From Roseobacter cerasinus (GTDB lineage Bacteria; Pseudomonadota; Alphaproteobacteria; Rhodobacterales; Rhodobacteraceae): a stretch of 64,000 nt of DNA. The stretch is taken from assembly GCF_009811755.1 (NCBI RefSeq), contig NZ_BLIV01000003.1:1-64000 (forward strand). Direction: 5' to 3'. Below the pieces are notes generated by a model. The model was not told where the DNA came from, ran no database searches, and saw only the letters and a program-made list of their open reading frames with translations. Position numbers and translations under genes: made by a program. The stretch's first letter is position 1. Each line of letters starts with the position of its first letter. This document shows positions 29,423-43,274 of this stretch, one piece after another.

Positions 29423-30268
29423 TTAGGCTGTGATCTGGTCCGGGTCTCGGTGATCCGGGAACCGTCCTCCTATCAACAGTGTAATCTCTCGGGCCGCATC
29501 TGCAACAGGGGCCGCAAGTTCTGGCAGACGCGGGCCATCAAACCGGGTGCTCGGCCCGGAAATGGACACGCCTGCATAGGGGTCGCCATATTCATCATAG
29601 ATGGCTGCCCCAATGCAGGACATGCCGCCATACCGTTCCTCCCGGTCAAAGGACCAGCCGCGCCTGCGGGTCTCGGACAGATCAGCAAACAGGGCGCCGG
29701 GCGTCACATGGGTCTGATCGGTGAATCTGGTCAGGCCGGTGGCCTGCAGCAACCCGCGCACGCGGGCGTCGGGCAGGGCGGACAGAATGGCTTTGCCAGT
29801 GCCGGAAGCATGCATCGACGTGCGCGTCCCGCGCGCAAAGAAGGCGCGGATGGGATTGGTGGTTTCCACCTGAGCCACAAAGACAACCTCCGTGCCATCC
29901 GCCACGGCGAGGTTCGCCGTCTCGCCCGTGGTCTCCATCAAACGCCGCATGATGGGCCGGCTCACCTCGCCAAGGCCGGTGTTGTTCATGAAGCAGACCC
30001 CGACCCTGTAGGCTTCAAGGCCGATGGCCCAATCCTGCCTCTCTTCGTTGAATGTCACGAACCCATGTTTCTGCAGCGTCGTGAGAATGCGGTGTGTCGT
30101 GGCCGTCGGCACACCGACCGACAGCGACAGATCGGTCAGGGTGCTCCGCTCCACCTCAGCGACGGCCTTGAGCAGACCAAGCGCCCGGTCGAGCGATTGC
30201 AAAGTCCCCGCTGAGCTGTCGCGAAACTGCGACTTCGGGCGTCCGCGTTGCCTGCCTTTGGTGCTCAT
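29423..30268 (-). CDS. bhcR: IclR-family regulator BhcR of the beta-hydroxyaspartate cycle
   Basis: 281 residues. The N-terminal winged helix (LQSLDRALGLLKAVAEVERS ... VGVPTATTHRILTTLQKHGF) and the C-terminal IclR ligand domain (VFVAQVETTNPIRAF, HASGTGKAILSALPD, SFDREERYGGMSCIGAAIYD) are complete. In Paracoccus an IclR protein at the same place, divergent from bhcA, senses glyoxylate and controls bhcABCD. The divergent gap of 199 nt carries two TGAAAA-N3-TTTTC(A/G) inverted repeats. Whether it also controls the TRAP-amidase operon directly downstream on its own strand is an open question. Confidence 0.9.
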   Translation of the reverse strand: MSTKGRQRGRPKSQFRDSSAGTLQSLDRALGLLKAVAEVERSTLTDLSLSVGVPTATTHRILTTLQKHGFVTFNEERQDWAIGLEAYRVGVCFMNNTGLGEVSRPIMRRLMETTGETANLAVADGTEVVFVAQVETTNPIRAFFARGTRTSMHASGTGKAILSALPDARVRGLLQATGLTRFTDQTHVTPGALFADLSETRRRGWSFDREERYGGMSCIGAAIYDEYGDPYAGVSISGPSTRFDGPRLPELAAPVADAAREITLLIGGRFPDHRDPDQITA

Positions 30269-30310
30269 GTGTCATATCCGCTGAGTGATCTTCTGAAGTT
30301 TACGTCTGAA

Positions 30311-30325
30311 TGAAAATCTTTTTCA
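30311..30325. promoter_or_regulatory. Candidate BhcR operator 1
   Basis: TGAAAA-TCT-TTTTCA, a perfect 6-bp inverted repeat with a 3-nt spacer, 43 nt from the bhcR start. A 15-bp AT-rich palindrome is typical of IclR-family sites. Confidence 0.6.
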
Positions 30326-30397
30326 AGTAGATTTGGATTGGGAAAATGAAAACATAAATATGATTAAAAACAATATGCTAAACTCGGTTTTACAAAA

Positions 30398-30412
30398 TGA
30401 AAAACTTTTTCG
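30398..30412. promoter_or_regulatory. Candidate BhcR operator 2
   Basis: TGAAAA-ACT-TTTTCG, the same inverted repeat with one mismatch, centred 87 bp from the first copy (about eight helical turns) and 56 nt before bhcA. A plausible bhcA promoter (TTGGAT at 30333, TAAATA at 30355) lies between the two copies. Confidence 0.6.
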
Positions 30413-30467
30413 AAAAAATTGCATCTGCGGACCTGGCTGTTATCCTCAGGCCAAGAGGAGGCACAGC

Positions 30468-31658
30468 ATGTCAGATCAAAATCCGGTTTTCATTCCAGGC
30501 CCGACCAATATTCCAGATCGCTTGATGCGTGCGATGCAGGTGCAGACCCGCGACCATCGCGCGCCGGATTTCGTGAAGACCTTTGCACCCGTTCTGCGGG
30601 ACCTGAAAGCGATTTTCGGCACGACCGACGGCACCGTCATCACATTCCCCGCCAGCGGGACGGGGGGCTGGGAGGCGGCGGTCTGCAACACGCTGAGCGC
30701 AGGCGACACTGTTCTGGTGGCCCGCTATGGCATGTTCAGCCACCGTTGGATTGAGCTGTGCGAGCGGCACGGGCTTGATGTGCAGGTGATCGACTGCGCC
30801 TGGGGCGCGGGCGCGCCGGTCGATGATTTCCGCGCCGCGCTCGCCGCCGACAGCGGGCATGAGATCAAGGCGGTGCTGGTGACGCACAATGAGACCGCGA
30901 CGGGCGTGACCTCGGACATCGCAGGTGTGCGAGCGGCTATGGACGCGGCTGACCATCCGGCAATGCTGTTTGTCGATTGCGTCAGTTCACTTGCGTCCAT
31001 TCCCTTCCACATGGACAATTGGGGCGTCGATATTGCGGTCTCGGGCTCACAAAAAGGCTTCATGCTGGCGACCGGCATGGCTATTCTCGGCGTCAGCCCC
31101 AAGGCGCTCGCAGCGATGGACCAGGCAACCCTGCCGCGCAGTTTCTTTGATTTCCGCGATATGACGGCGGCCAATGCGTCGGGTGGGTTTCCCTACACGC
31201 CGCCTTTGCAGCTGATCTATGGCCTTCGCGAAAGCCTGGACATGCTCTTTGAGGAAGGATTGGATAACGTCTATGCCCGCCACGCCCGGCTAGCAGAGGG
31301 CGTGCGCCGTGCGGTGCAGGCCTGGGGGCTGCAACTGGTGGCGCAAAGTCCGGGGTTGTATTCCGACACGGTGAGCGCGGTCTATGTGCCGCAGGGTTTT
31401 GACAGCAATGTGCTGACCGATCATGCGTTCAACGCCTATGGTGTGTCCTTCGGGATTGGTCTGGGGCAGATGAACTGCAGGGTGTTCCGCATCGGCCATC
31501 TGGGCAGCCTCACGGACGTCATGCTGCTGTCTGGTCTGGCCACGCTTGAGATGGCGATGGCCGATCTCAACTATCCGGTGACCCTCGGCAGCGGTGTGGC
31601 CGCTGCGCAGGACTACTATCGCATGACAGCCGGTGCGGCCGTGCGCTCAGCGGCTTGA
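30468..31658 (+). CDS. bhcA: L-aspartate:glyoxylate aminotransferase BhcA
   Basis: 396 residues from ATG 30468 with AAGAGGAGG upstream; the open frame above it is AT-rich leader, not coding. The protein is a fold-type I class V aminotransferase related to serine-glyoxylate transaminase: FIPGPTNIPDRLMRAM at the N-terminus, FPASGTGGWEAAV, FVDCVSSLASIPFHMDNWGV and the PLP-binding lysine Lys196 in SGSQKGFMLATG. It moves the amino group from aspartate to glyoxylate to make glycine and oxaloacetate, the first step and the amino recycling step of the beta-hydroxyaspartate cycle. Gene order bhcA-B-C-D with bhcR divergent is diagnostic. Confidence 0.93.
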   Translation: MSDQNPVFIPGPTNIPDRLMRAMQVQTRDHRAPDFVKTFAPVLRDLKAIFGTTDGTVITFPASGTGGWEAAVCNTLSAGDTVLVARYGMFSHRWIELCERHGLDVQVIDCAWGAGAPVDDFRAALAADSGHEIKAVLVTHNETATGVTSDIAGVRAAMDAADHPAMLFVDCVSSLASIPFHMDNWGVDIAVSGSQKGFMLATGMAILGVSPKALAAMDQATLPRSFFDFRDMTAANASGGFPYTPPLQLIYGLRESLDMLFEEGLDNVYARHARLAEGVRRAVQAWGLQLVAQSPGLYSDTVSAVYVPQGFDSNVLTDHAFNAYGVSFGIGLGQMNCRVFRIGHLGSLTDVMLLSGLATLEMAMADLNYPVTLGSGVAAAQDYYRMTAGAAVRSAA

Positions 31659-31671
31659 GGAGGCGCGGGGG

Positions 31672-32643
31672 GTGTTGGACAGAGTGACCGGACCAGACCT
31701 GACGTTGGACCATGTGAAAGCCGCACAGGCGCGGATTGCGCCGCATATTCACAGAACACCCGTTCTGACCTCCGCCTATTTCAATGCGCTGACAGGGGCG
31801 GAGCTGTTCTTCAAATGCGAGAACTTCCAGAAGGCCGGTGCGTTCAAGGTCCGTGGTGCGTCGAATGCGGTGTTTGGCCTCAGCGATGAGATGGCCGCGC
31901 GCGGCGTGGCCACGCATTCCTCGGGCAACCATGCCCTGTCGCTCAGCTATGCCGCCGGGCGGCGCGGCATTCCCTGCCATGTGGTGATGCCCCGGACCGC
32001 GCCGGAGGCCAAAAAGGCCGCAGTGCGCGGATACGGCGGGATCATCACCGAATGTGAGCCGTCGACCACCAGTCGCGAGGCCGTTTTTGCTGAGGTGCAG
32101 GCCGACACTAGCGCGGACTTCGTGCATCCCTATAACGATCCGCGCGTGATCGCCGGGCAGGCCACCTGCTCCATGGAATTGCTGGAGCAGGTGGACGGGC
32201 TGGACGCGATGATCGCGCCGATTGGCGGTGGGGGCATGATCTCGGGCACCTGCCTGACCCTGTCGCATCTGGCGCCGGAGGTTGAAATTTATGCCGCTGA
32301 GCCGGACCAAGCCGATGATGCCGCGCGCTCCTTCCGGGCGGGGCATATCATTGCCGAGGACGCGCCGGTCACCATCGCCGATGGCCTCAAGGTGCCGCTG
32401 AAGGAGAACACCTGGCACTTTGTCTCCCGCTTCGTGACGGATGTGCTGACGGCCAGCGAGCAGGAGATCATCGACGCGATGAAGCTCACCTGGGAGCGGA
32501 TGAAAATCGTGATGGAGCCAAGCTGCGCCGTGCCGATGGCCACGATCCTGCGCAACCCGGAGGTGTTTCGCGGCAAACGCGTGGGCGTCATCATCACCGG
32601 CGGCAATGTGGATTTGGACAAACTTCCCTGGATGAAAAGCTGA
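31672..32643 (+). CDS. bhcB: beta-Hydroxyaspartate dehydratase BhcB
   Basis: 323 residues from GTG 31672, with GAGGAGG 9 nt upstream; a GTG at 31633 inside bhcA is unlikely. Fold-type II PLP enzyme of the serine/threonine dehydratase family: Lys59 in GAFKVRGASNA holds PLP, SSGNHALSLSYAAG binds the substrate carboxylate, and IGGGGMISGTCL binds the PLP phosphate. It removes water from (2R,3S)-beta-hydroxyaspartate to give iminosuccinate. The gene starts 13 nt after bhcA. Confidence 0.9.
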   Translation: MLDRVTGPDLTLDHVKAAQARIAPHIHRTPVLTSAYFNALTGAELFFKCENFQKAGAFKVRGASNAVFGLSDEMAARGVATHSSGNHALSLSYAAGRRGIPCHVVMPRTAPEAKKAAVRGYGGIITECEPSTTSREAVFAEVQADTSADFVHPYNDPRVIAGQATCSMELLEQVDGLDAMIAPIGGGGMISGTCLTLSHLAPEVEIYAAEPDQADDAARSFRAGHIIAEDAPVTIADGLKVPLKENTWHFVSRFVTDVLTASEQEIIDAMKLTWERMKIVMEPSCAVPMATILRNPEVFRGKRVGVIITGGNVDLDKLPWMKS

Positions 32644-32654
32644 GGAGAGCGGAT

Positions 32655-33818
32655 ATGAACACGCATGTGAAATTCGACGACTATGAGGTTGGCTACGATA
32701 TTCCCGCCGCGATTGGCATGGACGAGGCGCAGATCCAGACCCCCTGTCTGGTGCTCGACCTCGACGCGCTGGAGCGCAACATCAAGAAGATGGGCGACTG
32801 GGCCAAAGCCCACGGCATGCGGCACCGCGTGCACGGCAAGATGCACAAATCGGTCGATGTGGCGCTGTTGCAGGAACGATTGGGGGGCGCTTGCGGTGTC
32901 TGTTGCCAGAAGGTGTCAGAGGCCGAAGTCTTTGCCCGTGGCGGCATCAAGGACGTGCTGGTCTCCAACCAGGTGCGACAGCCTGAGAAGATCGACCGGC
33001 TGGCCAGGCTGCCCAAACAGGGCGCGCGTGCGATCTGCTGCGTGGATGACATCGAGAATGTGGCGGACCTGTCGGAGGCTGCCGTACGCCATGGTACGGA
33101 AATCGAATGTCTGGTCGAGATTGACTGTGGTGCCGGTCGCTGCGGGGTGACGACGACGCCTGACGTGGTTGCGATTGCGAAGGCCATTGATGCGGCTGAG
33201 GGTCTGAAGTTCGCCGGTCTGCAGGCCTATCAGGGCGCGATGCAGCACATGGACAGCTATGCCGACCGCAAAGCCAAGATCGATTTGGCCGTAGCCATGG
33301 TCAAAGACGCGGTTGATGCGCTGAAAGCGCAGGGGTTGGACTGTGACATCGTCGGTGGCGGCGGCACCGGCTCTTACTACTTCGAGGGCAACTCGGGCGT
33401 TTACAATGAGCTGCAATGTGGCTCTTACGCGTTCATGGACGCCGACTATGGCCGCATCCTCGATGAGAGCGGCCAACGCATCGATCAGGGAGAGTGGGAG
33501 AACGCGCTCTTCATCCTGACCTCGGTCATGAGCCACGCCAAGGCGGACAAGGCGATAGTGGACGCCGGGCTCAAGGCGCAATCGGTCGACAGCGGGCTGC
33601 CGGTCATCTTTGGGCGCACGGATGTGGAATACGTCAAATGCTCGGACGAGCACGGCGTCGTGGCCGACCCGGACGGTGTGTTGAAGGTGAACGACAAGCT
33701 CAAGCTGGTGCCCGGTCACTGCGACCCCACCTGCAACGTGCATGATTGGTACGTGGGGGTGCGGAACGGCAAGGTGGAAACGCTGTGGCCGGTCTCGGCC
33801 CGTGGCAAAGCCTTTTGA
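32655..33818 (+). CDS. bhcC: beta-Hydroxyaspartate aldolase BhcC
   Basis: 387 residues, fold-type III PLP enzyme of the D-threonine aldolase/D-serine dehydratase family. The N-terminal barrel carries TPCLVLDLDALERNIKKMGD and the PLP lysine in HGKMHKSVDVA (Lys62 most likely). The C-terminal metal-binding pair is the late His/Cys motif in LVPGHCDPTCNVHDW. It condenses glycine with glyoxylate to make beta-hydroxyaspartate, needing a divalent metal. GAGGAG precedes the start and it follows bhcB by 11 nt. Confidence 0.92.
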   Translation: MNTHVKFDDYEVGYDIPAAIGMDEAQIQTPCLVLDLDALERNIKKMGDWAKAHGMRHRVHGKMHKSVDVALLQERLGGACGVCCQKVSEAEVFARGGIKDVLVSNQVRQPEKIDRLARLPKQGARAICCVDDIENVADLSEAAVRHGTEIECLVEIDCGAGRCGVTTTPDVVAIAKAIDAAEGLKFAGLQAYQGAMQHMDSYADRKAKIDLAVAMVKDAVDALKAQGLDCDIVGGGGTGSYYFEGNSGVYNELQCGSYAFMDADYGRILDESGQRIDQGEWENALFILTSVMSHAKADKAIVDAGLKAQSVDSGLPVIFGRTDVEYVKCSDEHGVVADPDGVLKVNDKLKLVPGHCDPTCNVHDWYVGVRNGKVETLWPVSARGKAF

Positions 33819-33827
33819 GGTGCCGTT

Positions 33828-34841
33828 GTGAGCATTCAGGCAACAGAAAGACTGGAAAATTCGATGAGTGATGGCGTGTTGATCGTCGGCGAAGACCTCT
33901 GCGCAGAGGTGGTGAGCCGCAAGGCGGCCTTCGACGCGGTCGAGGCTGTCTTTGGCGCCATGGCCTCGGACGACGCCTACAACTTCCCGGTCATCCGCGA
34001 GGCCATCGGCTATGCCGACGCGCTTTATGGGTTCAAATCGGGCTTTGACCGGGCGGGCAAGGCGCTGGGGTTAAAGTCAGGCGGCTACTGGCCAGGCAAT
34101 GCGGAGAAGGGGCTGACGAACCACCAGTCGACGATTTTCCTGTTTGATCCTGACACGGGCCTCTTGCGCGCGCTTGTGGGCGGCAACTACCTGACAGCGA
34201 TCCGTACGGCAGCGTCTTCTTCGGTGTCCATCGCGCATCTGGCGCGTGAGGAGTCGAAAGTGCTGGGTATGGTCGGAGCCGGGCATCAGTCGACTTTTCA
34301 ACTGCGCGCTGCGGCAGAGCGGCGAGCGTTTGAAAAAGTCGTGGCCTGGAACCCGCATCCCGAGATGCTGCCGAGGCTTGCCGCAGAAGCGGAGGCGCTG
34401 GGTCTGGCCTTTGAAGCGGTCAGCCCCGAAGAACTCGGCGCCGAAGCGGATGTGATCATCACCATCACCTCAGCCTTTGAGCCGCTGCTGATGAAAGACT
34501 GGATCAAACCCGGCACCCACATCGCCTGCATGGGCACCGACACCAAGGGCAAGCAGGAGGTTGACCCGGCGCTCCTCGCAGGCGCGACTGTCTTTACCGA
34601 TGAAATCGCCCAATCGATCACCATCGGAGAGGCGCAGCACGCCGTGCAAGCCGGGCTGCTGGCGGAGGCGGAGATCACGCCCATCGGCGCGGTCATCAAT
34701 GGCGATCACCCGGGCCGTCGCTCCGATGCTGAGATCACTGTCTTCGACGGGACAGGGGTTGGCCTGCAAGATCTTGCGGTCGCCTCCGTTGCAGCCGCAC
34801 AGGCGGAACAGACCGGGACGGCGGTGCGGGTCACGCTCTAG
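33828..34841 (+). CDS. bhcD: Iminosuccinate reductase BhcD
   Basis: 337 residues from GTG 33828, chosen for GAGG 7 nt upstream; ATG 33864 would give 325 residues, closer to known BhcD proteins, and cannot be excluded. Member of the ornithine cyclodeaminase/mu-crystallin family: substrate residues in GFKSGFDRAGKALGLKSGGY and a Rossmann motif LGMVGAGHQSTFQLRAA followed by DVIITITSAFEPLL. It reduces iminosuccinate to L-aspartate with NAD(P)H, closing the cycle. A hairpin with a T-rich tail follows at 34851. Confidence 0.92.
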   Translation: MSIQATERLENSMSDGVLIVGEDLCAEVVSRKAAFDAVEAVFGAMASDDAYNFPVIREAIGYADALYGFKSGFDRAGKALGLKSGGYWPGNAEKGLTNHQSTIFLFDPDTGLLRALVGGNYLTAIRTAASSSVSIAHLAREESKVLGMVGAGHQSTFQLRAAAERRAFEKVVAWNPHPEMLPRLAAEAEALGLAFEAVSPEELGAEADVIITITSAFEPLLMKDWIKPGTHIACMGTDTKGKQEVDPALLAGATVFTDEIAQSITIGEAQHAVQAGLLAEAEITPIGAVINGDHPGRRSDAEITVFDGTGVGLQDLAVASVAAAQAEQTGTAVRVTL

Positions 34842-35015: not shown

Positions 35016-36017
35016 ATGTTCCTTTCACGTATATCCGCATTGGCGTGCGGCGCGGCGTTCAGCGCGACGGCAAGTTTCGCCGATGGCCATCTGACGCCCG
35101 TCGTCTTTGGAACCAACTGGCTGGCGCAGGCGGAACACGGCGGCTTCTACCAGTCGGTCGCGGATGGCACCTATGCAGCCTGTGGGCTAGACGTCGAGAT
35201 CATCTCCGGCGGGCCGCAGGTGAACAACCGCGCGCTGATGCTGGCGGGCCGCATCGACTTTCACATGGGCGGCGACATGCTGCAGGCCTTCAACGCGGTG
35301 AAAGAGGGCATCCCGGTTGTCTCCGTCGCCGCGATCTTCCAGAAACACCCGCAGGTGATCCTCGCCCACCCGGGTGAGGCGGAAAGCTGGGAGGATCTGA
35401 AAGACCTCACCCTGCTGATCGGCGACAACGGCTTCACATCTTACTATCAGTGGATGATTGCCGAGCATGGTTTTACCGTCGAGCAGCGCGAGCCCTACAC
35501 GTTCAACCCCGCGCCTTTCATCGCCGATACTCAGAAAGGCATGCAGGGGTATCTGAGCTCGGAGCCTTATGCGGTTGAGAAGGAATCCGGGATCAAGCCG
35601 AATGTCTTCTTGATCGCGGATGCGGGCTATTCCTCTTACGCCACCACCATTGAGACCATGGCCGACACCATCGCCAATGAGCCGGAGAAGGTGGAGTGTT
35701 TTGTCGATGCCTCGCTGACCGGCTGGTACAATTACCTCTACGGCGATAGTGCTGCGGCGGATGAGCTGATCAAGGCGGCCAATCCGGACATGACGCAGGA
35801 CAAGATCGACTTTGCCAAGCAGATGATGATCGACGAGGGCATCGTTGACAGCGGTGAGGCGCTGGAAACCGGCATCGGGTCGATGAGTGACGCGGTGATT
35901 GGCGACTTCTATGAAAAGATGGTCGCCTCCGGTGTGCTGGACGAGGGGTTGGATTGGCAATCCGCCTATACGCTCGACTTCACCAACAAGTCAGTTGGCA
36001 AAGACATCAAACCCTGA
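35016..36017 (+). CDS. ABC transporter binding protein, NMT1/THI5-like
   Basis: 333 residues from ATG 35016 with CGGAGG upstream; the open frame above has no family support. A Sec leader (MFLSRISALACGAAFSATASFA) is followed by the NMT1/THI5 pattern FGTNWLAQAEHGGFYQSVADGTY and CGLDVEIISGGPQVNNRALMLAG. Relatives bind pyrimidines such as the thiamine breakdown product FAMP (ThiY), riboflavin or sulfonates. It is the first gene of a nine-gene operon whose enzymes suggest a nitrogen heterocycle or cyclic amide as substrate. A hairpin follows 13 nt after the stop. Confidence 0.85.
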   Translation: MFLSRISALACGAAFSATASFADGHLTPVVFGTNWLAQAEHGGFYQSVADGTYAACGLDVEIISGGPQVNNRALMLAGRIDFHMGGDMLQAFNAVKEGIPVVSVAAIFQKHPQVILAHPGEAESWEDLKDLTLLIGDNGFTSYYQWMIAEHGFTVEQREPYTFNPAPFIADTQKGMQGYLSSEPYAVEKESGIKPNVFLIADAGYSSYATTIETMADTIANEPEKVECFVDASLTGWYNYLYGDSAAADELIKAANPDMTQDKIDFAKQMMIDEGIVDSGEALETGIGSMSDAVIGDFYEKMVASGVLDEGLDWQSAYTLDFTNKSVGKDIKP

Positions 36018-36030
36018 GACGCAGGGCTGC

Positions 36031-36056
36031 GCCCCGGTGCTATGGTGCGCCGGGGC
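36031..36056 (+). other. Perfect GC hairpin after the NMT1-like binding-protein gene
   Basis: GCCCCGG pairs with CCGGGGC around a 12-nt loop, between the binding-protein stop and the ATPase start. It is the same arrangement as after the other binding-protein genes of this window; no U-tract. Confidence 0.6.
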
Positions 36057-36074
36057 AATTGTGTCGGGGGACCC

Positions 36075-36860
36075 ATGACTGCACCGGAGCGGCCGCACGC
36101 CACGCGGCCCGAACTTTTGAGACTGGACAGGGTCGGCAAGACCTTCAACGGCGATGTGGTGGCGCTGCGCGGCATGTCATTGCAGGTGCGCGAGGGCGAT
36201 TTCATCTCGCTTCTGGGGCCGTCGGGTTGCGGCAAATCGACGGCACTGCGGCTGATTTCGGACCTCATGCACCCCAGCGAAGGGCGCATCACCTGGGCCG
36301 GGCCACAGGAAACGGGTGATCTGGGTGTCGTCTTCCAGGAACCGACGCTGATGCCCTGGGCCACGGTGGCGCAAAACGTCTGGCTGCCCTTCCGGCTGCG
36401 CGGCAAATCCTACGCCTCGGTGCGAGATGACGTGCTTGAAGCGCTGAAATTGGTCGGGCTGGAGAAATTCCAGAACAGTTATCCGCGAGAGCTGTCGGGC
36501 GGCATGAAGATGCGCGTCTCCATCGCCCGTGCCATGGTCACGCGGCCCCGGCTGATCCTGATGGATGAACCTTTTGCGGCGCTGGATGAGATCACGCGCT
36601 TCAAGCTGAACAACGACCTGCTGACGCTGAAAGAAGCCATCGGCTGCACCGTGATCTTCGTGACCCATTCGGTGTTCGAATCCGTGTTCCTGTCGGACCG
36701 CATTGTCGTCATGGCTGCAAGGCCCGGGCGCGTCATCACCGAGTTGCAGGTGGATGCGGCCTATCCTCGGCCGGAGAGCTTCCGCACCTCTGCCGAATAC
36801 GCAGCCTACACGCGGCAAGCGACGGATGCGCTGCACGAAGCGATGGGAGAGGTCGCATGA
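36075..36860 (+). CDS. ABC transporter ATP-binding protein (nitrate/sulfonate/pyrimidine type)
   Basis: 261 residues from ATG 36075 (an earlier GTG/ATG would overlap the hairpin). Walker A is LLGPSGCGKSTALR near residue 45, the Q-loop VVFQEPTLMPW, the signature LSGGMKMRVSIARAM near 140 and Walker B LILMDEPFAALDE. The LSGGM signature and overall pattern fit the SsuB/TauB/ThiZ subgroup that partners NMT1-type binding proteins. It overlaps the permease gene as ATGA. Confidence 0.9.
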   Translation: MTAPERPHATRPELLRLDRVGKTFNGDVVALRGMSLQVREGDFISLLGPSGCGKSTALRLISDLMHPSEGRITWAGPQETGDLGVVFQEPTLMPWATVAQNVWLPFRLRGKSYASVRDDVLEALKLVGLEKFQNSYPRELSGGMKMRVSIARAMVTRPRLILMDEPFAALDEITRFKLNNDLLTLKEAIGCTVIFVTHSVFESVFLSDRIVVMAARPGRVITELQVDAAYPRPESFRTSAEYAAYTRQATDALHEAMGEVA

Positions 36861-37714
36861 GCATCGCAGACTCGACCGAGACCACCATGGAGCCGGATGC
36901 CGACGAGATCGCGCGGCAGCGTCGCAAACGCGTCGAGACGTTCGGCAAATGGCTGCTGCCCGCCGTCGTGCTGGTGCTGATGCTGGTCATTTGGGACCGC
37001 ATCGTCGTGTGGAACGAGATCCCGCACTACATCCTGCCGGGGCCAGGGCTGGTCTTTGAGACACTGATCAAGGATTGGGCGATGCTCTTTGAGGCCCTGC
37101 TGGTCACGGTGCAGATCACGCTTATGGCGCTGGCTGTGGCGGTGATCGGCGGGGTTGGGCTTGCGGTGCTCTTCACCCAGTCGCGGCTGGTGGAGATGAG
37201 TTTTTACCCCTACGCCGTGATCCTGCAGGTCACGCCGATTGTGGCTATCGCACCCCTGATTTTCATTTATGTGGACAGCCGGATTGCGGGGCTTTTGCTC
37301 TGCGCCTGGCTGGTGGCGTTTTTCCCGGTGCTCAGCAACACAACGCTGGGGCTGAACTCCGCCGATCACAACCTGCGCGATCTCTTCCGCATCTACGGCG
37401 CCTCGCGCTGGCAGACGCTGCGGTTTCTACAGCTACCGTCGGCCTTGCCCTACTTCCTCGGCGGGCTGCGCATCGCCGGGGGGCTGTCGCTGATCGGGGC
37501 TGTGGTGGCGGAATATGTGGCGGGCACGGGCGGGCTGAAATCCGGGCTGGCCTTCCGCATTCTGGAGGCGGGGTATCGGCTCAACATCCCGCGCATGTTC
37601 GCGGCGCTTATCCTCATCGCGGGCACCGGGGTGATCATCTTCGCGGGCCTCAGTTTCCTCAGCCATATGCTTCTGCGCAAATGGCATGAGAGCGCATTGA
37701 AGCGGGACCACTGA
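36857..37714 (+). CDS. ABC transporter permease (SsuC/ThiX type)
   Basis: 285 residues with six hydrophobic segments, for example WLLPAVVLVLMLVIWDRIV, LLVTVQITLMALAVAVIGGV and FAALILIAGTGVIIFAGLSF. The EAA-type cytoplasmic loop reads LRDLFRIYGASRWQTLRFLQ followed by LPSALPYFLGGLRIAGGLSL. It forms the channel of the importer with the upstream ATPase. The stop and the next start share one base (TGATG). Confidence 0.9.
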   Translation: MSIADSTETTMEPDADEIARQRRKRVETFGKWLLPAVVLVLMLVIWDRIVVWNEIPHYILPGPGLVFETLIKDWAMLFEALLVTVQITLMALAVAVIGGVGLAVLFTQSRLVEMSFYPYAVILQVTPIVAIAPLIFIYVDSRIAGLLLCAWLVAFFPVLSNTTLGLNSADHNLRDLFRIYGASRWQTLRFLQLPSALPYFLGGLRIAGGLSLIGAVVAEYVAGTGGLKSGLAFRILEAGYRLNIPRMFAALILIAGTGVIIFAGLSFLSHMLLRKWHESALKRDH

Positions 37715-38976
37715 TGGATTTTCGCACGCTGCCCAATGGCCATATCACGCTGAAAAATGTGACTGTACCGGCCTGCCTGATCGGTGTGGAGGGCGATCTA
37801 GTTCAGCGCGATCTCTCCATCAATGCAGGCCGGATCACTGAGGCGCCGGGGCAGGCGGTCGATATGAAAGGCGCGATGATCTTCCCGGCCTTTGTCGACA
37901 TGCATACACATCTCGACAAGGGGCACATCTGGCCCCGCGCGGCCAACCCGGACGGCAGCTTTGACGGGGCGCTGCGCACGGTGGGCGAAGACCGGCTGGC
38001 AAATTGGAGCGCGGAGGATGTGGCCACACGCATGGATTTTGCCCTGCGCTGCGCCTACGCCCATGGCACCCGCGCGATCCGCACACATCTCGACAGTATT
38101 CCGCCGCAGGACGATATCTCTTGGCCCGTGTTCGAAGAGATGCGGGCCAAATGGCAAGGGCGCATTGCGCTGCAGGCCGCCTGTCTTGTGGGCTGCGACC
38201 GGGTTGAGGAGGGCAGCGGCTTTGCCCATACCGCTGATCTGGTGGCGGGAGCCGGGGGCGTCTTGGGCATGGTGAGCTATCCGGTGCCGGACATTGCCGC
38301 CCGTGTGCGGTATTTTCTGGCGCTGGCGGCAGAGCGCGGGCTGCACGCGGATTTCCACGTGGATGAAACGCTCGATCCGGCCTCCGAGACCCTGCGCGTC
38401 ATTGCGGAGGCGGTGCTGGAGACGGGGTTCGACGCCCCTGTGACCGTGGGCCACCTCTGCTCGCTTTCGGCGCAAGAGCCAGACCGCGCCGCCAGTACGA
38501 TGGATCTGGTGGCCAAGGCCGGTCTGCATGTGGTCTCGCTGCCCATGTGCAACCTCTACCTGCAGGACCGGCAAGAGGGCACGCCGCGCATGCGGGGCCT
38601 CACACTGGTGCATGAGCTAAAGGCGCGCGGCGTGAACGTCAGCTTTGCCTCCGACAACACCCGCGACCCGTTCTATGCTTACGGCGATCTCGACATGATC
38701 GAGGTGATGCGCGAGGCCACGCGGATCGGCCATCTGGACCATTCCGATACCGACTGGGTGCAGGCCTTCACCGCGAACCCCGCCCATGCCTGCGGTTTTG
38801 ACAGTCCAAGTCTTGCGCCTGGCGTACCGGCGGACCTGGTGATCTGCCGCGCGCGCAGCTGGACGGAGCTTTTTGCTCGCCCGCAGGCGGACCGCAGCGT
38901 GCTCCGCGATGGGAAACAAATCGACCGCATGCTGCCGGACTATGCCGAACTCGACCATCTGATGAGGACCTCATGA
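37714..38976 (+). CDS. Cytosine-deaminase-like amidohydrolase
   Basis: 420 residues. Metal and catalytic motifs of the CodA branch of the amidohydrolase superfamily are all present: MHTHLDKGH (about residue 63), HADFHVDETLD (about 210), VTVGHLCSLSA (about 245) and the late metal Asp in FASDNTRDPF (about 312). The enzyme should deaminate or hydrolyse a cyclic C=N or amide bond, as cytosine deaminase, creatinine deaminase or isopropylammelide hydrolase do. Coupling to the importer by TGATG and to the oxidase by ATGA indicates one catabolic route. True substrate unknown. Confidence 0.82.
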   Translation: MDFRTLPNGHITLKNVTVPACLIGVEGDLVQRDLSINAGRITEAPGQAVDMKGAMIFPAFVDMHTHLDKGHIWPRAANPDGSFDGALRTVGEDRLANWSAEDVATRMDFALRCAYAHGTRAIRTHLDSIPPQDDISWPVFEEMRAKWQGRIALQAACLVGCDRVEEGSGFAHTADLVAGAGGVLGMVSYPVPDIAARVRYFLALAAERGLHADFHVDETLDPASETLRVIAEAVLETGFDAPVTVGHLCSLSAQEPDRAASTMDLVAKAGLHVVSLPMCNLYLQDRQEGTPRMRGLTLVHELKARGVNVSFASDNTRDPFYAYGDLDMIEVMREATRIGHLDHSDTDWVQAFTANPAHACGFDSPSLAPGVPADLVICRARSWTELFARPQADRSVLRDGKQIDRMLPDYAELDHLMRTS

Positions 38977-40379
38977 CCGCCAATCTCGCCGCTGCCAAAG
39001 CCGCTCTGTCGCATCTGGATCTGGAAGAAAGCGGCGCGGGCCTGAAGGCCAAGAGCCGCGATTTCTTCTGGTACTCGCCGGTGCTGAAAGCGCGGCTCGA
39101 TGAGGTTTGCGCGGATTTCGTGGTGAGCCCGCGCAGCGAGGCGGAGGTGATTGAGGTTCTGAAGGTCTGCTATGCCTATGATGTGCCGGTCACCACGCGC
39201 GGAGCGGGCACGGGCAACTATGGTCAGGCGATGCCATTGGCGGGCGGCTGCGTCATGCATCTGCGGCACATGGCGGCGGTGAAGGACATTCAACCCGGCC
39301 GTGTTGTGGTCGAGCCGGGGTGCCTGCTGAAAGATCTGGATGCGGCCTGCAAGGAACACTCGGTGCAGGAGATCCGAATGTTCTCCTCCACCTGGGCCAC
39401 GGCGACCATTGGCGGCTTCATCGCCGGTGGCTCTGGCGGGGTCGGCTCCTGCACCTGGGGGTCTTTGCGCGATCTGGGCAATATCATCCGCCTGCGCGTG
39501 GTGACCATGGAGGAAGAGCCGCGCGTGCTGGAGTTTCAGGGCGAGGAGCTCGCGCGCGTCAGCCACGCCTATGGCACGAATGGGATCATCACCGAAATCG
39601 AAATGCCGCTCGCGCCCGCCTACGACTGGGTGGATCTGTTCGTGGCAACCGATGACTTCATGGACGCTGCCCGCTTTGCCGAAGAGCTGGCCAATGAAGA
39701 CGGCATCCTGATCAAGCTCGCCACGGTCTTTGAAGCGCCCATTGCCAAGGACTACTTCCAACGGGTCGCCCCGCATGTGGAGGAGGGCACCAACCTCATC
39801 GGCCTGATGGTGGCGCCGCACAGCATGGACGGGTTCCTGACCTTCCTTGGGAGGCGGCCACATGCTCGTCTGATCTACCGCAGCGACGATCACGACTGGC
39901 CGCGCGGGCCTGGCATGGTCTTTGAATACGGCTGGAACCACACGACGCTGCGTGCGCTGAAAGTGGACCCCTCCATCACCTATCTGCAGGTGCGCTACGG
40001 CTTCCCGCAGCATCTGGAGCTGATTGAGCAAATGCGCGACGCGCTCAGCCCGGAGGTGCTGCAACACCTTGAAGTGCTAAAGGAAAACGGCAAGGTGATG
40101 TTCGCGGGTCTCAGCCTGGTGAAGTTCACGAGCGAGGAGCGGCTGGACGAAATCATTCGCCTGCATGAAGAGGCTGGTGCGATGATCTTCAACCCGCACC
40201 GCTACACGCTTGAAGAGGGCGGGCGGCAGACGGTTGATGACCGGCAGCTGGCCTTCAAGCGTGAGGCGGACCCCAAAGGGTTGCTGAACCCCGGCAAGAT
40301 GATCGCCTGGGATGATCCTGATTGGGCCTACGACCGGATGTACGCCTATCCCAAGCTGCGCGCCGCCGAATATCGATGA
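38973..40379 (+). CDS. FAD-binding oxidoreductase (PCMH/GlcD-type)
   Basis: 468 residues. The FAD-binding PCMH domain shows FVVSPRSEAEVIEVLKVCYA, PVTTRGAGTGNYGQAMPLAG (about residue 75) and WATATIGGFIAGGSGGVGS (about 140). The C-terminal cap resembles 2-hydroxyacid dehydrogenases and alcohol oxidases; the ending NPGKMIAWDDPDW is the family's terminal NPGK(M/L) motif. No GlcE or GlcF partners are encoded, so this is not the classical glycolate oxidase. It probably oxidises a hydroxylated intermediate of the operon's pathway. Confidence 0.85.
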   Translation: MTANLAAAKAALSHLDLEESGAGLKAKSRDFFWYSPVLKARLDEVCADFVVSPRSEAEVIEVLKVCYAYDVPVTTRGAGTGNYGQAMPLAGGCVMHLRHMAAVKDIQPGRVVVEPGCLLKDLDAACKEHSVQEIRMFSSTWATATIGGFIAGGSGGVGSCTWGSLRDLGNIIRLRVVTMEEEPRVLEFQGEELARVSHAYGTNGIITEIEMPLAPAYDWVDLFVATDDFMDAARFAEELANEDGILIKLATVFEAPIAKDYFQRVAPHVEEGTNLIGLMVAPHSMDGFLTFLGRRPHARLIYRSDDHDWPRGPGMVFEYGWNHTTLRALKVDPSITYLQVRYGFPQHLELIEQMRDALSPEVLQHLEVLKENGKVMFAGLSLVKFTSEERLDEIIRLHEEAGAMIFNPHRYTLEEGGRQTVDDRQLAFKREADPKGLLNPGKMIAWDDPDWAYDRMYAYPKLRAAEYR

Positions 40380-40957
40380 CCCGCGCGCTTGTCCTCTTTG
40401 CCCACCCTTGCGCGGAAAGTTTCTCCGCCGCGTTGCACGGGCAGGTGGTCGAGCGGTTGCAAAAGCGGGGCTGGGAGGTGGACGATTGCGACCTCAACGC
40501 CGAAGGGTTCTCGCCTATCCTCACGGCCGAGGAGCGGCGCGGTTATCATGAAGAGGCCTCAAACACCGACCCCGTTGCCTCCTATGTCGCCCGGCTGCAG
40601 CGGGCCGAGGCGCTGGTTCTGGTTTTCCCGGTGTGGAATTTCGGGTTTCCGGCCGTGCTGAAGGGGTTTTTCGACCGGGTCTTTCTGCCGGGCGTGTCCT
40701 TCAATCTTGAAGACGGCAAGGTCCGCCCAAACCTGCAGCACATCCGCAAGCTTGCGGCGGTCACGACCTATGGTGGCACCCGAACGCGGGCCTTTCTGGC
40801 CGGGGACCCGCCGCGCAAGGTGGTCACACGTGCCGTCTGGCACGTATGTCGCCCGCAGAAAATGCGGTACCTTGCGCTTTATGATATGAACCGCGCGACA
40901 GATGCACAAAGGGCAAGCTTTCTGTCGCGGGTGGATCAGGAAATGGAGATGTTTTGA
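40376..40957 (+). CDS. NAD(P)H-dependent FMN oxidoreductase (flavodoxin-2 fold), first copy
   Basis: 193 residues from ATG 40376 (ATGA overlap with the FAD oxidase). Flavodoxin-like quinone/flavin reductase: VLFAHPCAESFSAALH at the phosphate loop and LVFPVWNFGFPAVLKGFFDRVFLPG near residue 85, then TTYGGTRTRAFLAGDPPRK. These enzymes move hydride from NAD(P)H through FMN to quinones or flavins. It is the first of two tandem relatives, the second starting directly after the stop. Confidence 0.85.
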   Translation: MTRALVLFAHPCAESFSAALHGQVVERLQKRGWEVDDCDLNAEGFSPILTAEERRGYHEEASNTDPVASYVARLQRAEALVLVFPVWNFGFPAVLKGFFDRVFLPGVSFNLEDGKVRPNLQHIRKLAAVTTYGGTRTRAFLAGDPPRKVVTRAVWHVCRPQKMRYLALYDMNRATDAQRASFLSRVDQEMEMF

Positions 40958-41587
40958 ATGCGTGCGCTCATTGTTTATTGCCATCCGAAGGAGACGAGTT
41001 TCACCGCGTCTGTCCGCGAAACCGTGCTGGAGCGGCTGCGGTTTGCGGGCGCAGAGACGCGTGTAATCGATCTCTATCGCCGCAATTTCTCGCCCGCTCT
41101 GAGCAGCACGGAGCTGGACATCTACGAGGACACACCCGCCAACCGCGCGCCTGTGGCTCAGGATGTGGAGGATGTGCTCTGGTGTGACACGCTTATCTTT
41201 GTCTACCCGACCTGGTGGTACGGGTTGCCTGCCATGCTGAAAGGGTGGCTCGACCGGGTGCTGCTGCCCGATGTGGCGTTTCTGATGCCGGATGGCGAGA
41301 ACGACAACATTCGCCCCGGCCTCACCCATATCACCCGGCTGGGGCTCTTCACCACCTGTGGAGCCAGCTGGGGGCTGACGCAGATGATTGGCGCGCCGGG
41401 CAAACGCACGATCCTGCGCGGGGTGCGGGCGATCTGCGCACGACGGTGCAAGACGGCCTTTGCCGCACACTACCTGATGGACAGCTCGACCGACGCTAGC
41501 CGCAAGGCGCATCTGCGAAACGTGGCGGGCAAGATGGACAAGTTCATCGGGGCGGTCCCGCTGAAACACAGCGCGGTGCGGGCATGA
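40958..41587 (+). CDS. NAD(P)H-dependent FMN oxidoreductase (flavodoxin-2 fold), second copy
   Basis: 209 residues. Same family as the preceding gene: VYCHPKETSFTASVRETVLE, FVYPTWWYGLPAMLKGWLDR and TTCGASWGLTQMIGAPGKRT. Identity with its neighbour is visible but modest, so the duplication is old and the two likely have different partners or substrates. It starts immediately after the previous stop (TGAATG) and overlaps the oxygenase gene as ATGA. Confidence 0.85.
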   Translation: MRALIVYCHPKETSFTASVRETVLERLRFAGAETRVIDLYRRNFSPALSSTELDIYEDTPANRAPVAQDVEDVLWCDTLIFVYPTWWYGLPAMLKGWLDRVLLPDVAFLMPDGENDNIRPGLTHITRLGLFTTCGASWGLTQMIGAPGKRTILRGVRAICARRCKTAFAAHYLMDSSTDASRKAHLRNVAGKMDKFIGAVPLKHSAVRA

Positions 41588-42504
41588 TCCCGGTTCTCGA
41601 TTGGTCCCGGTTTGAGAGCGACCGGGCTGAGTTTTTGTCTGATTTAGGGCAGGCGGTGCGCGGGCCGGGATTCTTCCTGTTGCAGAACCATACGGTTTCG
41701 TCAGACCTGCGGGCCAAGGTGTTTGACATGGCCGAGGCGTTCTTTTCGCAGCCCCTCGCTGAGAAACAGGCGCTGTCGATCCTGAACACGCCGCATTATC
41801 GCGGCTGGGCGGCGGAAGGGGACGAGTCGCTCGATGACAGCTCGGCGCAGGTGGACCGGAAGGAAAGCTTCAACATCGGGTTTGATCTCGCGCCAGAAGA
41901 TCCCCGCGTCAAGCGCGGGGATGCGTTTCGCGGGGTGAATGTCTGGCCGCAGATCGACGGGTTTCGCGAGGTGATGCTGGCCTATTATGACGCGGCCCTC
42001 GCGTTGGGGGTCGACATCCACCGTGCCTTTGCCGCGGATCTGGGGCTGGAGGCGGAGCATTTCACGCCGGCCTTTGCCGATCCGATGGCGGCCCTGCGCC
42101 TCTTGCATTACCCGCCTGGGACCGGCGCGGAGAATGAGATCGGTGCAGGTGCGCATACGGACTACGGAGCCATCACGCTGTTGATGACGGACGGAGAGGG
42201 CGGTTTGCAGGTGAAGCCGCGCGGCGGCGATTGGGTCGATGTGCCTCATGTGCCCGATGCCTATGTGGTCAATATCGGCGATTGCCTGATGCGCTGGACC
42301 AATGACATTTATGTCTCCACCCCGCACCGCGTTCTGCCACCCAAGCGGCAGCGCCGCTCGGTTGCGTTTTTTGTCGAGGCGCATCCGGATGCGGTGGTTG
42401 CAGCCCTGCCGGGCACGGGGGAGCCGAAGTATCCGCCGGTACGTGCCGCCGACTATCTGCGCTCGCGACTCGATGCGACCTATGCCCCGAAAGAGGCCTC
42501 ATGA
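41584..42504 (+). CDS. 2-Oxoglutarate/Fe(II)-type oxygenase (isopenicillin N synthase family)
   Basis: 306 residues. The N-terminal DIOX_N block (GQAVRGPGFFLLQNHTVSS, EAFFSQPLAEKQALS) is followed by the jelly-roll core with the iron facial triad HTDYGAITLL (His-x-Asp, about residue 193) and the distal His in STPHRVLPP (about 251). RRSVAFF contains the Arg-x-Ser that binds 2-oxoglutarate or the substrate carboxylate. It should hydroxylate or desaturate an organic substrate using O2. Overlaps of 4 nt on both sides place it firmly in the operon. Confidence 0.88.
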   Translation: MIPVLDWSRFESDRAEFLSDLGQAVRGPGFFLLQNHTVSSDLRAKVFDMAEAFFSQPLAEKQALSILNTPHYRGWAAEGDESLDDSSAQVDRKESFNIGFDLAPEDPRVKRGDAFRGVNVWPQIDGFREVMLAYYDAALALGVDIHRAFAADLGLEAEHFTPAFADPMAALRLLHYPPGTGAENEIGAGAHTDYGAITLLMTDGEGGLQVKPRGGDWVDVPHVPDAYVVNIGDCLMRWTNDIYVSTPHRVLPPKRQRRSVAFFVEAHPDAVVAALPGTGEPKYPPVRAADYLRSRLDATYAPKEAS

Positions 42505-43274
42505 GCGGCCTGACGGATTGGGCTGATCTGCGCGCGCCGGACTTTGCCGAGATCGACCCAATGCAGACCATTGCGATCCTGCCCACGGCGGCGATTGAGC
42601 AGCACGGGCCGCATTTGCCGGTGGGCACCGATACGCTGATCGGGCAGGGCATGCTGGCGGAGCTGCGGCGACAGGCGCCCGATGATCTGGACCTACGGCT
42701 GCTGCCGCTGCAGGCGGTGGGGAAATCCAACGAACATCTCTGGGCGGCAGGCACCCTGACGTTGAGCGCGGCTACCGCACTGGCCGCCTGGACCGAGATT
42801 GGCCTAAGCGTGGCGCGGGCGGGCATACGGAAGATCGCGATTGTGAACTCACACGGTGGCAACCTTGATCTGGTGTCGATCCTGTCGCGGGAGCTGCGGG
42901 TGCAGGCGGATATGTTGGCGGTGAAATGCCAGTGGGGGTCTTTCGGCACGCCGAAGGGGCTCTATTCAGATCAGGAGAAGACCTTTGGTATCCATGGCGG
43001 TGATCTGGAGACCTCGCTGATGCTGTATTTCCGGCCTGAGACGCTGGATATGTCCGCGGCGCAGGATTTCCGCTCCACTGCTGAGACCAGTGCGATTTCG
43101 CCTATCGGGCCAGTATCCTACGGCTGGATTGCCAGTGATCTGAACCCGGCAGGCACGGTGGGTGAGGCGCATCTGGCCACGGCTGAGAAGGGGGCTGCCA
43201 CGGCTCGCCATCAGGTCGCCGGCTTCATTGATCTTTTGCGCAAGATGCGGGCAATGGAGCTTCCCGCGCCGTGA
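42501..43274 (+). CDS. Creatininase-family metallo-amidohydrolase
   Basis: 257 residues. Metal ligands of the family appear in PTAAIEQHGPHLPVGTDTLI (Glu, His and Asp), VNSHGGNLDL and IHGGDLETSLMLYF (Glu). Relatives open cyclic amides or hydrolyse amides: creatininase, the formamide hydrolase ArfB and the peptidase MftE. As the last gene of the operon it probably cleaves a ring or amide product made by the upstream steps. The stop is 4 nt from the convergent glpR stop. Confidence 0.87.
   Translation: MSGLTDWADLRAPDFAEIDPMQTIAILPTAAIEQHGPHLPVGTDTLIGQGMLAELRRQAPDDLDLRLLPLQAVGKSNEHLWAAGTLTLSAATALAAWTEIGLSVARAGIRKIAIVNSHGGNLDLVSILSRELRVQADMLAVKCQWGSFGTPKGLYSDQEKTFGIHGGDLETSLMLYFRPETLDMSAAQDFRSTAETSAISPIGPVSYGWIASDLNPAGTVGEAHLATAEKGAATARHQVAGFIDLLRKMRAMELPAP

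Follow-up and report, generated by a model that had tools for sequence, protein, structure and literature searches.

The nine-gene operon and its distribution

The stretch of DNA analysed here (the window, 64,000 nt) comes from Roseobacter cerasinus (GCF_009811755.1, NZ_BLIV01000003.1, positions 1-64,000), and its positions 35016-43274 hold an operon of nine open reading frames, named A to I in order and all located on the + strand (Table 1). Our analysis suggests that this is probably a catabolic operon for pterins, that is, for the pteridine moiety of folate and the products of its oxidation. An earlier, sequence-only reading of the same DNA had described nine near-gapless genes at this position, which we confirm: A and B are separated by 57 nt, and the spacings from B to I are -4, -1, -4, -4, 0, -4 and -4 nt, so that the genes from B to I are likely to be translationally coupled.

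Table 1. Genes of the operon, with positions in the window (aa, amino acids; ABC, ATP-binding cassette; FAD, flavin adenine dinucleotide; NAD(P)H, reduced nicotinamide adenine dinucleotide (phosphate))
Gene	Product	Position	Strand	Family or relation
A	NMT1/THI5-like periplasmic solute-binding protein, 333 aa	35016..36017	+	Pfam PF09084, 74.5 bits
B	ABC transporter ATPase	36075..36860	+	Pfam PF00005
C	ABC transporter permease	36857..37714	+	Pfam PF00528
D	Amidohydrolase, probable pterin (2-amino-4-oxopteridine) deaminase	37714..38976	+	NCBIfam NF005759 ('cytosine deaminase')
E	FAD-binding protein, probable flavin oxygenase	38973..40379	+	Relative of PDB 6v42
F	Flavodoxin-fold NAD(P)H oxidoreductase, proposed electron donor	40376..40957	+	Pfam PF02525 (Flavodoxin_2)
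G	Second flavodoxin-fold NAD(P)H oxidoreductase	40958..41587	+	Pfam PF02525 (Flavodoxin_2)
H	Optional Fe(II)/2-oxoglutarate-type oxygenase, proposed side-chain oxidiser	41584..42504	+	Pfam PF14226 (DIOX_N) + PF03171 (2OG-FeII_Oxy)
I	Creatininase-family metal amidohydrolase, proposed ring-opening amidase	42501..43274	+	Pfam PF02633, 221.2 bits

Related loci were drawn from 60 same-family loci, the best 80 named loci of a genome collection, and plasmid and rhizobial loci; 153 of the 167 were kept after exact duplicates of part of E had been dropped, near relatives stay in the set, and the loci are thus not independent of one another. A gene was scored as present if it lay no more than 7 kb from E and showed at least 35% identity. 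Core loci are those in which E is at least 60% identical to the window E, and 98 of 115 were untruncated, the window being among the 98. Within these 98, A, B, C and E are present throughout, D in 97, G in 95, F in 94, I in 85 and H in 49, and a RidA gene stands beside the cluster in 80, at a location that varies. The sequence-only reading had proposed a search for the same gene set in other Rhodobacterales, and the set does recur: all of A-G are found in 91/98 core loci, from many genera of one family, and A-G plus I in 79/98. The genes that are present hold the order A-B-C-D-E-F-G-(H)-I; the commonest arrangement is RidA(divergent)-A-B-C-D-E-F-G-I in 35 loci, followed by its counterpart with H inserted ahead of I in 31, and tblastn with the nine window proteins recovered this gene order in the majority of the first 60 same-family loci. 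Loci whose E is 50-60% identical (n = 26) have A in 24, D in 25, F in 22, G in 9, H in none, I in 24 and RidA in 24, and those with E at 30-44% (n = 7) have A in 6, D in 3, F in 1, G in 2, I in 6 and RidA in 3.

The same-family sample comprises 295 genomes, that of R. cerasinus included, and 103 of these 295 carry an E homologue at an E-value of 1e-30 or below; an E of at least 60% identity occurs in 68 of the 294 other genomes and in many genera. At class level, 10/289 genomes besides its own match E at 1e-110 or below, with best identities of 46-53%, and at phylum level 31/398 genomes besides its own, family members included, match at 1e-70 or below. Plasmid records with an E match number 149 of 72,556, of which 109 are from Rhizobium, and E, I and a transporter recur jointly in alpha-, beta- and gammaproteobacteria. 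Because the gene set is conserved across the 98 core loci, the operon is real, widespread yet patchy, and not a chance adjacency.

The encoded proteins and their relatives

The relationship of E to a protein of solved structure provides the strongest lead to function. A phmmer comparison with solved structures gave 563.9 bits to 6v42/6v43 over residues 4-454 of E, the next solved protein reaching 51 bits, and an AlphaFold model of E (28-sequence alignment, predicted local distance difference test score, pLDDT, of 85) superposes on 6v42 with Z 49.3, a root-mean-square deviation of 2.4 and 56% identity over 452 aligned residues, the next entry being at Z 31.0. The 6v42 entry, released in 2020, is titled 'flavin oxygenase with cofactor bound involved in folate catabolism', and E is thus a probable flavin oxygenase rather than an FAD oxidase. 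The 6v42 sequence was matched at an E-value of 1e-150 or below in 102/297 genomes of a Rhizobium-type family, at best with 89% identity, and we read the neighbourhoods of three of its four nearest relatives (89%, 88% and 84%). All three genomes encode I and RidA divergently, followed by A-B-C-D-E-F-G in the order of the window, with identities to the window proteins of 57-62% for A, 58-63% for B, 65-68% for C, 53-58% for D, 56-57% for E, 53-54% for F, 44-47% for G and 56-57% for I. This common gene order and these identities suggest that the operon and the cluster of the nearest relatives of 6v42 are very probably the same system. The window likewise combines a full-length relative of 6v42, at an identity typical of orthologues, with an adjoining NF005759-type deaminase, an NMT1 importer, reductases and a creatininase-type protein, and R. 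cerasinus shares with the 6v42-type cluster the fold of E, the A-G block, I and RidA. In contrast, H does not appear in the three relatives, whose I and RidA genes lie divergently upstream, whereas in R. cerasinus I lies at the 3' end of the operon and RidA elsewhere in the genome.

The deaminase D scores 603 bits with NF005759, an equivalog model named 'cytosine deaminase' with a cut-off of 403, compared with 602 for the D that accompanies the 89% relative of 6v42, 699.5 for that of Rhizobium johnstonii 3841, and 184.7 for E. coli CodA. Conversely, the model that contains CodA, NF006685, is not reached by D (104.3 bits versus a cut-off of 483) and gives 895.7 bits with CodA itself. We aligned 146 D sequences from the 153 loci with CodA, the remaining loci being without a stop-free D match of more than 350 aa. 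H61, H63, H214, E217, H246 and D313 are invariant in 146/146, so that D has the metal ligands and the catalytic Glu and Asp of CodA. What D lacks are Q156, D314 and W319, which we take to be the substrate-contacting residues of CodA: D314 is replaced by Asn and W319 by Phe in 146/146 orthologues, and the site of Q156 is mostly Gly (83/136 in the closer set), with no Gln among the residues listed. The window D has G160, N315 and F320 at these positions, and six deaminases of distant loci (E at 36-41%) likewise carry Asn and Phe and lack Gln. Because the proteins covered by NF005759 lack the substrate residues of CodA, its name is very probably wrong, and it is a name that spreads into annotated genomes, of which we observed examples.

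Judged from sequence, D is a probable pterin deaminase, and in chemical terms the 2-amino-4-oxo edge of a pterin would present the same amidine-amide group. Among the pterin deaminases known so far, Arad3529 is presumably a member of COG0402. This enzyme, from Agrobacterium radiobacter K84, and the pterin deaminase (PDA) of Variovorax sp. F1, both cloned, are related hydrolases (PMC9513972), and we propose the same reaction for D. The same paper notes that predicted pterin deaminase genes of Variovorax paradoxus are followed by conserved 'endoribonuclease' genes (PMC9513972); since Pfam PF01042 bears that name, these are probably RidA-type, and a RidA-type gene would thus accompany the V. paradoxus genes as well. 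Pteroate, deaminofolate and deaminopteroate are reported there, with further catabolism suspected but not identified (PMC9513972), and You et al. 2022 raise the question of whether bacteria break down pteroate and deaminopteroate and, if so, by what route (PMC9513972). In the open-licence literature we found no paper on the enzymes that follow pterin deaminase or on a pathway with this gene set. The earlier statement that no described pathway with these genes was known is nevertheless wrong in part, since a role in folate catabolism had been claimed for the close relative of E in the 2020 PDB release.

The reductases F and G bear on how E would work. In distant clusters from Enterobacterales, on a Klebsiella pneumoniae plasmid, p2B17602, and on a Pantoea plasmid, in which E is 36-38% identical, tblastn found no homologue of F or G, and a PDR/VanB-family reductase heads the cluster; in a Roseateles cluster, a 2Fe-2S protein is encoded next to RidA. 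As reductase genes are conserved, and as the type of reductase is swapped while E, I, the deaminase, RidA and the transporter are kept, E would appear to need an external electron donor. The importer is less informative, with a single weak match of A among solved structures (E-value 7e-5) and a Pfam assignment, PF09084, to a family broad enough to have 9 matches in the R. cerasinus genome.

In H, the residues H191, D193 and H248 (HxD...H) and R257 and S259 (RxS) are conserved at 98% or more in 55 sequences; we assume the usual roles for both motifs and take H191, D193 and H248 to be the iron triad. Among solved structures H matches 9ovh best (191.9 bits), followed by thymine dioxygenase 5c3p at 150.5 bits. 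The match to 5c3p covers nearly the full length of H, and both motifs are shared with the thymine-7-hydroxylase and 2-oxoglutarate (2OG)-Fe(II) oxygenases, whereas the better match, 9ovh, is deposited as a 2-oxoglutarate-dependent ethylene/succinate-forming enzyme. H occurs in 49/98 core loci and its presence changes at least 16 times on a quick tree of E, and therefore H is an accessory component rather than a core step. In I, the residues E33, H35, D44, H118 and E170, which we take to form the creatininase metal site, are conserved at 98% or more in 123 sequences. I thus shares PF02633 and the metal-site residues with creatinine amidohydrolase but does not reach the curated creatininase model TIGR04448 (EC 3.5.2.10), scoring 79.5 bits versus a cut-off of 235. 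The claim that the catalytic motifs are intact is borne out for D, H and I, whose catalytic residues are present and conserved. The protein families listed in the sequence-only reading are also correct, with the amendments that its 'FAD oxidase' is a probable flavin oxygenase and that 'cytosine-deaminase-like' does not mean cytosine.

Probable pterin catabolism and competing explanations

Taken together, these relationships can be arranged as a route. The importer A-C would take up a pterin, for example pterin-6-carboxylate, 6-formylpterin or 6-hydroxymethylpterin. Thymine-7-hydroxylase oxidises the methyl group of thymine, and H, where present, may oxidise the C6 side chain of the pterin in a similar way, a role that we propose because H is optional. 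D would then remove the 2-amino group to give a lumazine and ammonia, a step for which the family and the catalytic residues are in place and the substrate is a prediction. F and G would pass electrons from NAD(P)H, on which E, if dependent on an external reductase, would oxygenate the lumazine ring. I may subsequently hydrolyse the activated ring amide, and RidA would hydrolyse the imine or enamine released. In this scheme the substrates of D and A, the oxygenation and its site, the roles of F, G, I, RidA and H, and the end products are those that we infer. An uptake, deamination, oxygenation and ring-opening route for a nitrogen heterocycle, as the sequence-only reading had drawn it, survives as the best inference, except that the oxygenase H (49/98 loci) is not part of its core. 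Somewhat short of an even chance, in our estimation, is the larger proposal of a complete, reductase-fed pathway that mineralises pterins and is widespread though patchy in marine Rhodobacterales. Here, ring oxygenation would be the work of a two-component system in which a VAO-fold flavoprotein can be paired with different reductases (flavodoxin-fold, PDR/VanB, perhaps ferredoxin). The oxidised pteridine ring would be opened by a creatininase-fold enzyme, and pterins that bear side chains would be brought within range by a thymine-7-hydroxylase-like oxygenase that has been gained or lost repeatedly. Folate and pterin fragments are turned over in nature, and the operon offers, for marine bacteria in culture, a candidate pathway that is defined gene by gene and can be tested.

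We acknowledge that a number of points weigh against pterin catabolism. The folate role goes back to one PDB title, a statement of the depositors, and the open-licence literature yielded no paper on 6v42/6v43. In a seventh distant locus, carried by a plasmid of Agrobacterium tumefaciens, no deaminase is annotated, and neither its cluster nor that of Ruegeria sp. TM1040 has a reductase gene; the argument from the reductases is weak at this distance, with F in 1/7 and G in 2/7 loci at E 30-44%. A creatininase-type gene is missing near E in 13/98 core loci. RidA is not encoded in the window. Lastly, 28 representatives (10+10+8) of gene groups recurring near the operon, a selection of such groups, were named, and none of the 28 is a folate-cleaving peptidase; the importer may therefore take up a form other than folate itself.

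It is unlikely, in our judgement, that the operon serves another nitrogen heterocycle, fused or single-ringed, related to pterins, such as a purine (8-oxoguanine or isoguanine), a product of flavin breakdown or a methylated uracil, with the 6v42 assignment valid for the rhizobial enzymes only. Such an assignment would sit well with an E that is just 56% identical to 6v42 and with thymine dioxygenase as the second-best solved relative of H, and clusters with E at 36-42% and diverged deaminases in alpha-, beta- and gammaproteobacteria make a drift in substrate plausible. It fits poorly with the A-G order that the window has in common with three genomes close to the 6v42 source, in which D remains 53-58% and A 57-62% identical, and with the Asn and Phe that replace D314 and W319 of CodA being identical in all 146 D orthologues. 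A chance adjacency of unrelated genes, or two separate pathways with H-I apart from A-G, is scarcely credible. H is absent from 49/98 core loci and I from 13/98, and rhizobial I genes do lie outside the A-F(-G) run, divergent by RidA or, for the R. johnstonii type, ahead of the run in the same orientation; yet A-G are found jointly with I in 79/98 core loci, and the combination of E, I and the transporter recurs in alpha-, beta- and gammaproteobacteria.

The sequence-only reading itself had considered a thiamine-type aminopyrimidine (hydroxymethylpyrimidine, HMP, or formylaminopyrimidine, FAMP), cytosine, creatinine or a hydantoin, broken down to feed glyoxylate to BhcABCD of the beta-hydroxyaspartate cycle, and this we now consider very unlikely. 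Its attractions were the NMT1/THI5-like importer, a D named after cytosine deaminase, an I of the creatininase family, and a gene set labelled bhc that adjoins the operon on its 5' side (29423-34841). Against these stand the loss from D of the CodA substrate residues and scores that fall short of NF006685 (104.3 versus 483) and of TIGR04448 (79.5 versus 235), and the best evidence, namely the relation to 6v42 and the common cluster, points instead to pterins or lumazines. As for the feed into BhcABCD, the bhc genes are indeed neighbours, but the neighbourhood is not conserved. Among the 143 other loci (duplicates included), 125 of which have at least 2.5 kb upstream of A, bhcC lies near the operon in one (L101), and a bhcA homologue alone (57%) in one more. 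BhcC is encoded in 38/68 operon-bearing versus 111/226 operon-free same-family genomes (Fisher p = 0.34). With bhcC in 1/143 loci and no genome-wide association, we reject a functional link between the operon and the cycle, and the adjacency looks incidental. Pterin catabolism remains our preferred reading of the operon.

Homarine catabolism was also considered, and the enzymes expected of it would not match the gene set. A conserved homarine catabolic pathway in environmental bacteria is attributed to Ferrer-Gonzalez et al. 2026, as cited in PMC13390433.

Neighbouring genes and variant clusters

On the 3' side of the operon, a DeoR/GlpR-type regulator, scoring below the cut-off of its model, is encoded on the opposite strand, and beyond it lie genes that we take to be of glycerol type. 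R. cerasinus has a RidA orthologue (68% identical) on another contig (C2:750554), its other RidA homologues reaching at most 33%. RidA-type proteins make up 4 of the 28 named neighbour representatives and are the sole fit to the pathway apart from one IPNS-type oxygenase (L063).

At R. johnstonii 3841 pRL12 (L179, 1-12326), the cluster adjoins genes for a paoABC-type molybdenum aldehyde oxidoreductase, an enzyme that might oxidise 6-formylpterin; paoABC was not found by tblastn in 20 stretches of about 20 kb each (L209-L228), and we keep it as a lead only. Enzymes of the Fe(II)/2OG type are also encoded near distant E clusters, a TauD-type enzyme in Ruegeria sp. TM1040 and an IPNS-type enzyme on the A. 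tumefaciens plasmid. The Ruegeria cluster, on a megaplasmid (L182, 6646-13973; E at 39%), holds a glutamine amidotransferase gene, the TauD/TfdA dioxygenase and a different binding protein, and nothing homologous to A, B or C was detected in that stretch. E itself is multiplied in places: one locus (L226, G421:C15, 7833-11901) has three tandem E paralogues, 41%, 47% and 39% identical to the window E, between deaminase and reductases, and another (L225) has two copies of E on opposite strands.

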